Below, piece after piece: positions 3,730-4,771 of a stretch of DNA of 64,000 nt (positions within the stretch are counted from its first letter, which is position 1; each line of letters opens with the position of its first letter). The stretch comes from Chitinophagales bacterium. Lineage in GTDB: Bacteria; Bacteroidota; Bacteroidia; Chitinophagales; UBA10324. Where the stretch lies: assembly GCA_025056305.1 (NCBI GenBank), contig JANWWJ010000038.1:62001-126000 (forward strand), in the 5' to 3' direction. Both the position numbers and the translations under genes were made by a program. Under the pieces are notes generated by a model that saw only the letters and a program-made list of their open reading frames with translations, was not told where the DNA came from and did not search any database.

Positions 3730-4377
3730 ATGGTTAATACAAAAATAAGCATTATCATAGCTGACGATCATCGTATTTTTTTAGAAGGACTCAAGCGTCT
3801 AATTCAAAACGATTCCCTAAAGCTGGTAGGCACAGCTTCAAACGGAGCTGAACTCATGGCTTTGTTAGCCAAGGAGCAGGCTGATGTGGTCATTTTGGAT
3901 CTGAACTTGCCGGACGAAAGCGGTATTCAGTTGACCCGGAAAATTGTCCGCAAATATCCAAAGGCCAAAGTGCTTGGTTTAACCATGGTTGAAGACGGTA
4001 AACAAATAGCAGCTATGATGAAAGCGGGAGCCAGTGGCTATGTCTTAAAAAGCTCGAGCTCTGCAGAATTATTGGATGCGATCTATCGGGTCTATAAGGG
4101 GGAACGCTATTTAAGCAGTGAAGCTTCATTACGCTTACTGGAAAGCAAGCAGAACGAGAAAAAAGAAAAGGCGGTTGCGGATGTTCCGCTCACCAGGCGG
4201 GAGCAGGAGGTCTTGCGGCTTATAGCCAAAGAAATGACCTGTGCAGAAATAGCGCGGGCACTTAACAACAGCCCCATGACCATCATCACCCACAGAAAGA
4301 ACATTTTGCGCAAGCTGGGGGTCAAGAACACAGCAGGCCTGATTCGTTATGCATACAAGTTCGGGCTAGCGGATTAA
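3730..4377 (+). CDS. NarL/FixJ-type response regulator (orphan)
   Basis: Two-domain regulator of about 215 residues: a receiver domain (acidic pair in IIIADDHRIF, phospho-acceptor D57 in VVILDLNLP, conserved Lys in YVLKSS) and a LuxR-type helix-turn-helix (LTRREQEVLRLIAKEMT... through LRKLGVKNTAGLIRYA). No histidine kinase is adjacent, so its input is unknown. I chose the ATG at 3730 because the putative -7 box ends at 3697. An in-frame ATG at 3709 (7 residues more) is also possible but would leave a leader of only a few bases. Confidence 0.88.
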   Translation: MVNTKISIIIADDHRIFLEGLKRLIQNDSLKLVGTASNGAELMALLAKEQADVVILDLNLPDESGIQLTRKIVRKYPKAKVLGLTMVEDGKQIAAMMKAGASGYVLKSSSSAELLDAIYRVYKGERYLSSEASLRLLESKQNEKKEKAVADVPLTRREQEVLRLIAKEMTCAEIARALNNSPMTIITHRKNILRKLGVKNTAGLIRYAYKFGLAD

Positions 4378-4396
4378 AAAAATTTTTTTACCCCTA

Positions 4397-4427
4397 TTTG
4401 GGTAATTATTTTGGTTACCTATTTTTG
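4397..4427 (+). promoter_or_regulatory. Promoter of the putative small RNA
   Basis: TTTG (4397-4400), a 19-base spacer, and TATTTTTG (4420-4427). This is a full match to the Bacteroidota pair TTTG / TAnnTTTG. The expected transcription start, a few bases downstream, falls at or next to the first base of the RNA's closing stem (4437). Confidence 0.7.
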
Positions 4428-4436
4428 GGTACTGAT

Positions 4437-4546
4437 AGGCTGTGGAGTCGCCATCGTAAGCGGAAAGTTTTTTGGTGTTTTTACTTTCCGGACTTGTCCC
4501 AACTCACGTTTCCCCTCAAAGCGATGCCTCCACAGCCTCTTTTTTT
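4437..4546 (+). ncRNA. Putative ~105-nt structured small RNA with its own promoter and terminator
   Basis: No protein gene fits here. The 5' end AGGCTGTGGAG (4437-4447) is a perfect 11-base complement of CTCCACAGCCT (4528-4538). The stem continues after a small internal loop with CATCG (4452-4456) against CGATG (4522-4526). Inside it is a perfect 8-base-pair hairpin, CGGAAAGT (4461-4468) with ACTTTCCG (4483-4490). Seven T's (4540-4546) follow the closing stem, so the stem doubles as an intrinsic terminator. A well-formed promoter sits just upstream. It lacks the conserved 4.5S/SRP core and is short for 6S or tmRNA, so I do not assign a family. What is seen: promoter, stems and T-run. Inferred: that they define one RNA. 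Confidence 0.65.
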
Positions 4547-4572
4547 CTAAAAGCTGATGTAAGAGTGCTTCG

Positions 4573-4580
4573 TACTTTTG
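4573..4580 (+). promoter_or_regulatory. -7 promoter box for tRNA-Leu
   Basis: TACTTTTG matches TAnnTTTG exactly and lies 29 bases before the tRNA. No good TTTG is seen at the upstream position. A small hairpin, CAGCC-GTA-GGCTG (4586-4598), occupies the leader. Confidence 0.5.
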
Positions 4581-4608
4581 CCTAACAGCCGTAGGCTGAA
4601 CGGGCTTT

Positions 4609-4690
4609 GCGGATATGGCGTAATTGGCAGCCGCGCAAGACTTAGGATCTTGTGCCGAAAGGCGTGGGGGTTCGAATCCCTCTATCCGCA
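4609..4690 (+). tRNA. tRNA-Leu (anticodon TAG)
   Basis: Acceptor stem GCGGATA (4609-4615) pairs with TATCCGC (4683-4689). The anticodon arm is CAAGA-CTTAGGA-TCTTG with anticodon TAG at 4643-4645, reading CUA. A long variable arm (around GCCGAAAGGC) identifies a class II tRNA, and the T loop is GTTCGAATC. CCA is not encoded after the discriminator A at 4690. Confidence 0.97.
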
Positions 4691-4771
4691 CAACCCAAGG
4701 CTGGTCCTTTCCACCTATGGGTGTAGCCCGGTTCAGGGGCATGATCATCTGGTTAATCTAAATCAGCAGGA

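Follow-up and report, generated by a model that had tools for sequence, protein, structure and literature searches.

The window, the 64,000-nucleotide stretch of a Chitinophagales genome that was analysed, contains an intergenic interval between a response regulator gene, whose stop codon ends at 4377, and a tRNA-Leu(TAG) gene at 4609-4691, followed by the genes for trigger factor, clpP and clpX. The response regulator (3748..4377) matches the Pfam families Response_reg (4.5e-26) and GerE (7.6e-17), and these domains together with the tRNA bear out the location that a sequence-only reading had given for a structured small RNA. An antisense ORF that overlaps the interval (4419-4748, minus strand) has no Pfam match. 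The features of the locus are as follows.

3748..4377, plus strand: NarL/FixJ (LuxR)-type response regulator gene, immediate upstream neighbour, conserved (Pfam; loci of relatives)
4389..4404, plus strand: dyad TACC-N8-GGTA overlapping the -33 element
4397..4400, plus strand: -33 element TTTG
4416..4431, plus strand: dyad TACC-N8-GGTA flanking the -7 box
4420..4427, plus strand: -7 element TATTTTTG of the RNA promoter, 19 nt after TTTG, kept in compact orthologues
4432..4546, plus strand: predicted small RNA of ~110-115 nt (model R1 match at 4437-4541)
4437..4447, plus strand: 5' arm of closing stem P1, a perfect 11 bp (fold, covariation)
4452..4456, plus strand: 5' arm of inner stem P2, CATCG, 5 bp
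4461..4468, plus strand: 5' arm of apical hairpin P3, a perfect 8 bp
4469..4482, plus strand: apical loop UUUUUGGUGUUUUU, 14 nt, the best conserved sequence and a candidate pairing site
4483..4490, plus strand: 3' arm of P3
4509..4515, plus strand: unpaired UUUCCCC in the 3' bulge
4522..4526, plus strand: 3' arm of P2, CGATG
4528..4538, plus strand: 3' arm of P1, an intrinsic terminator together with the U-tract (fold, covariation)
4540..4546, plus strand: terminator U-tract, seven T's
4573..4580, plus strand: separate -7-like box TACTTTTG ahead of tRNA-Leu
4609..4691, plus strand: tRNA-Leu(TAG), downstream neighbour, conserved

Direct reading and folding recover the architecture first described from the letters alone, with the 11-bp closing stem, the 5-bp inner stem, the 8-bp hairpin and the seven T's all in place. 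The RNA of the window has a minimum free energy of -36.2 kcal/mol (z = -4.0), a value that none of 200 dinucleotide shuffles equalled, and all the intact orthologues that were folded have z from -2.5 to -5.5. We considered pairing of the loop with the 3' bulge as a pseudoknot and rejected it: an ACCAA/UUGGU pairing is possible in L002 and L003 and is not kept in the other orthologues.

The proposed promoter, TTTG followed after 19 nt by TATTTTTG, can be read directly at 4397-4400 and 4420-4427. As a string it is unremarkable (three matches in the window against 1.4 expected), and on comparative grounds it is meaningful through its conservation, not through the string match alone: TAnnTTTG stands 16-35 nt upstream of the closing stem in all seven compact orthologues, with no exact match in the g6 and L043 forms. 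The sequence-only reading had also placed the transcription start at the first base of the stem, which does not hold. TAnnTTTG lies at -12 to -5 in Flavobacterium (PMC9723704), and this spacing places the predicted start 5 nt ahead of the stem, at around 4432. Among the orthologues the 5' leader is between about 4 and 23 nt long, and a start at the first stem base is therefore not a conserved property. Further downstream, the TACTTTTG box at 4573-4580 suggests that the tRNA-Leu and trigger-factor side is transcribed apart from the small RNA.

A DNA search of relatives returned a copy in the same genus and, from several further genera, partial matches; the good matches sit between a response regulator gene and tRNA-Leu(TAG). 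Searching with the response-regulator protein added further loci. We then built a covariance model, R1, from five relatives, leaving out the window and its congener. R1 finds the window at 4437-4541 with 42 bits (E 3.6e-8 in 64 kb; the next match scores 13.8 bits) and the congener at 40 bits; elsewhere in the window and genome its scores stay at chance level, with no second copy. Counting a shorter g6 form, the RNA is present in 12 of the 16 genomes searched of its own family in the order Chitinophagales (G000, G001, G003, G005, G006, G007, G008, G010, G011, G012, G014 and G015). No copy was found in G002, G004, G009 or G013; two of these genomes, G004 and G009, are incomplete. One apparently decayed copy occupies the same place (L037:3698-3788), with remnants of the loop and bulge, no closing stem and no significant fold. 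Among 399 genomes of other families of the order, strict filters left no convincing relative, and the R1 matches there (E 0.05-0.9), which come without the loop and without the neighbours, were rejected.

In most of the examined loci the orthologue is flanked by the same NarL-type response regulator and tRNA-Leu(UAG), with the regulator gene upstream also in relatives and the tRNA downstream in almost all loci; L043 retains the small RNA without a downstream tRNA-Leu.

The stems and the loop have evolved in different ways. Aligned in a register set by hand from the base adjoining the U-tract, the closing stem keeps 82 of 88 pairs across 11 distinct sequences, many of them through full base-pair swaps; when 3' strands were exchanged between species in 5,000 trials, the mean was 52 pairs and the maximum 73. 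Its sequence is almost wholly different between lineages, running from AGGCUGUGGAG via AGAGGCUG and GCCGCUCA to AACCGCCUUC and GAAAACCGC. The P3 stem is mostly invariant and shows little covariation, with one-sided changes and a single two-sided one. The apical loop UUUGGUGUUUU is nearly invariant and the best conserved sequence in the compact, g6 and L043 forms, and TTTGGTGTTTT is kept even where all stems differ. Compact orthologues also keep the unpaired pyrimidine/C-run (UUUCCCC) of the 3' bulge.

Rfam 15 has no match at the locus, either at the gathering thresholds or at E<=10. The suggestion of a new or unrecognised RNA family, for which an Rfam comparison and a search of relatives for covarying stems had been proposed, is thus upheld by the empty Rfam result, the compensatory changes in the closing stem, the conserved loop, the -7 box and the synteny. 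The RNA has its own promoter, a conserved structure with compensatory changes and an intrinsic terminator, as expected of an independent small RNA. On this comparative evidence, the stretch from about 4432 to 4546 on the plus strand is a genuine, previously uncatalogued and conserved RNA gene restricted to one family.

The most likely role of this RNA is probably regulatory. Small RNAs that contact something through a loop typically form a stable hairpin in which that single-stranded loop is preserved while the stems drift, and the constancy of this loop while the stems differ fits an interaction site. We give about an even chance to a trans-acting small RNA whose loop base-pairs with A-rich leaders and whose promoter is controlled by the neighbouring response regulator. 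In such a mechanism the regulator would act on the RNA promoter via the TACC-N8-GGTA dyads, the terminator stem would end and protect the RNA, and the apical loop, perhaps with the unpaired UUUCCCC, would pair with A-rich leaders of target mRNAs. Pairing at sites of the AAAACACCAAAA type near a start codon would then block translation.

Two TACC-N8-GGTA dyads stand 27 bp apart around the RNA promoter, and only 11 such dyads occur in 464 kb of the genome, these two included. NarL recognizes the heptamer TACYYMT (PMC4886647); the left halves of the dyads match it exactly and the right halves at six of seven positions. Across the seven compact sequences, the window among them, the dyad at the -7 box is exact in four and has at most one mismatch in six (exact outside the window in L003, L004 and L034; one mismatch in L002 and L040). 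The dyad at 4389-4404 has a counterpart only in the congener L002, with one mismatch, and is possibly a response-regulator operator or a weak terminator of the response-regulator mRNA. Because the conserved neighbour is a NarL-type regulator, it is reasonable to infer that it would control the RNA promoter through these dyads. The -7 dyad is absent from L005, L043 and the g6 forms, and such control would therefore not be universal.

Candidate targets were sought through the exact complement of the loop. In four genomes of genus g6 (G010, G012, G013 and G014) AAAACACCAAAA stands upstream of ssb, separated from the ATG by 2 nt, and the same ssb-leader site occurs in a fifth genome, G006; in G013 and G015 a surface-protein gene has the complement at an equal distance from its ATG. 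At the sites before both genes the pairing with the loop is 12 bp and perfect. The ssb site is absent from the window's own genome and from all other genera of the family. In samples of 345 leaders from the own genome and 304 from G012, the complement of the loop is not overrepresented against permuted words, a comparison of low power. Bacteroidota leaders are A-rich, and for this reason the ssb match could be a chance one inherited within one genus. The ssb and surface-protein sites are accordingly suggestive as targets, genus-limited and weak. Elsewhere, the own genome has a single exact 12-mer site (L183), which was discarded as it does not lie in a leader in the sense direction. As a separate observation, the leaders of two unrelated genes in genus g6, those of ssb (L191, L198, L201 and L204) and of the surface protein (L187 and L200), share ATAAAACACCAAAAYTATG, which contains the exact loop complement.

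Among the modes of action that the comparative data could accommodate, base-pairing regulation would stand at about one half, binding of a protein at about a fifth, and 6S-like or cis roles would rank lower. A structured RNA whose conserved loop binds and sequesters a protein, as a CsrB-like or other decoy, would need no mRNA pairing; it would explain a loop that is near-invariant across lineages while the stems change, and also the lack of enrichment of loop complements in leaders. Each RNA carries a single copy of the motif, however, unlike multi-site decoys, and we consider a decoy unlikely. It is also improbable that the structure belongs to the response-regulator mRNA, as an elaborate terminator or a 3' untranslated element, and lacks an independent role. 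The RNA does start just ~55-60 nt after the response-regulator stop in its own genus, and the closing stem with its U7 is a terminator, but the promoter is conserved in 7/7 compact orthologues, a separate terminator-like hairpin already stands at 4388-4405, and termination has no need of a conserved apical loop. The least probable of these readings is a cis-acting leader or antiterminator for the downstream tRNA-Leu/trigger-factor unit: although the RNA is conserved upstream of tRNA-Leu(TAG) at almost all loci, its 3' end is an intrinsic terminator, a -7-like box of the tRNA's own stands at 4573-4580, and L043 keeps the RNA with no tRNA-Leu behind it.

A strongly diverged and shortened 6S RNA that binds the RNA polymerase holoenzyme takes up the superficial 6S likeness noted earlier, and is slightly less probable than the 3' element. 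The closing stem, the asymmetric bulge and the apical hairpin speak for it, and since neither a wider 6S model, R2, nor a core pattern finds a canonical 6S in the family, a replacement is conceivable. Against it, RF00013 and RF01685 are negative, and R2 gives 5.7 bits at the locus, aligning the closing stem and U-tract and skipping the whole core. The RNA is also half as long as the 6S RNAs of the order and has no TAAACTCAAC or GCGGGCCTC core; its would-be bubble has only a few nucleotides on the 5' side, and its conservation is strongest in the apical loop. R2 likewise gives no match in further families of the order (f21, for example), which makes non-detection weak evidence. The likeness to 6S thus stands for the closing stem and the U-tract and fails for the rest, including the site of strongest conservation, which is the apical loop and not a central bubble. 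With RF00013, RF01685 and R2 all against it, 6S identity was rejected; the small RNA is not a recognisable 6S RNA by these models. That the family lost the canonical 6S which many other families of the order have, and that this half-size, response-regulator-controlled RNA took over as a minimal RNA-polymerase-binding regulator would be very improbable, only marginally ahead of a cis leader.

These comparisons rest on the following searches. RF00013, which matches E. coli, B. subtilis and others, gave nothing at E ≤ 1 across 61 relatives, and RF01685 gave no match in the own genome. With RF01685, true 6S RNAs are recognised in one family (f73, Flavobacteria-like) and, at scores under its cut-off, in other Bacteroidia. 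R2 was built from these RF01685-found 6S RNAs and yields convincing 6S matches in 44 of 120 sampled genomes of the order; three further listed matches are short fragments. A Bacteroidia 6S RNA as modelled by R2 is expected to have a core of TAAACTCAAC...GCGGGCCTC...GGGGTTT in ~180-240 nt, and those of the order run to ~205-240 nt with a closing stem, a TAAACTCAAC-like and GCGGGCCTC core and a U-tract. In the own family no canonical 6S was found by R2 or by the core pattern. The R2 matches there are 36-91 nt fragments, mostly bare terminator hairpins, and were rejected, and AACAN{26,52}RGCGGGCYKC occurs about as often as in a reversed control, with nothing convincing. R2 has no match in several further families of the order either, and the absence may therefore reflect limited sensitivity.

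Beside 6S-Flavo (RF01685) and the Bacteroidia 6S RNAs, the small RNA is alike in being intergenic in Bacteroidota, in its closing stem followed by a U-tract and in its internal unpaired region. It differs from them in length (~110 nt, against 205-240 nt in the order and ~180 nt in Flavobacteria), in lacking the 6S core, and in having a one-sided bulge and a conserved apical loop. With RF00013 6S it shares a long imperfect hairpin with an interior unpaired stretch, but it has neither the symmetric central bubble nor a match to that model.

The nearest described counterparts of the proposed base-pairing RNA are Rfp18 of Flavobacterium psychrophilum (PMC9723704) and the small RNAs of Bacteroides thetaiotaomicron (PMC7366714), which are trans-acting and intergenic. 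They likewise have their own TAnnTTTG-type promoter, an intrinsic terminator and a conserved stem-loop proposed for pairing. The present RNA differs in that it was found in one Chitinophagales family only and in that its targets are candidates only, and it is likened to them by description, not by sequence. It is an undescribed small RNA family, ordinary in kind, and the comparative evidence for its gene and fold is good.

Few small RNAs of Bacteroidota have, to our knowledge, been described outside Bacteroides and Flavobacterium, and the phylum mostly lacks Shine-Dalgarno-based initiation. The clear covariation, the fixed neighbourhood and the putative circuit of one regulator and one RNA would make this system an easy target for testing small-RNA action in Bacteroidota. 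R2, for its part, finds Chitinophagales 6S RNAs that Rfam cut-offs miss and would improve annotation. The 6S loci in question (L135-L149 and L095-L112) belong to Chitinophagales and other Bacteroidia and are mostly missed by RF01685 at its cut-off; at L108, the one that we checked, the adjoining gene encodes RNase Y.

The freshwater g6 forms (L041, L042, L044, L045 and L048) carry a conserved stretch of ~90 nt upstream of the RNA, TAACCTAATTTGAATTCGTTTGTAGAAGACCTCAAACACA..., which bears a GTTTG/CAAAC hairpin. The transcript may be longer in g6.
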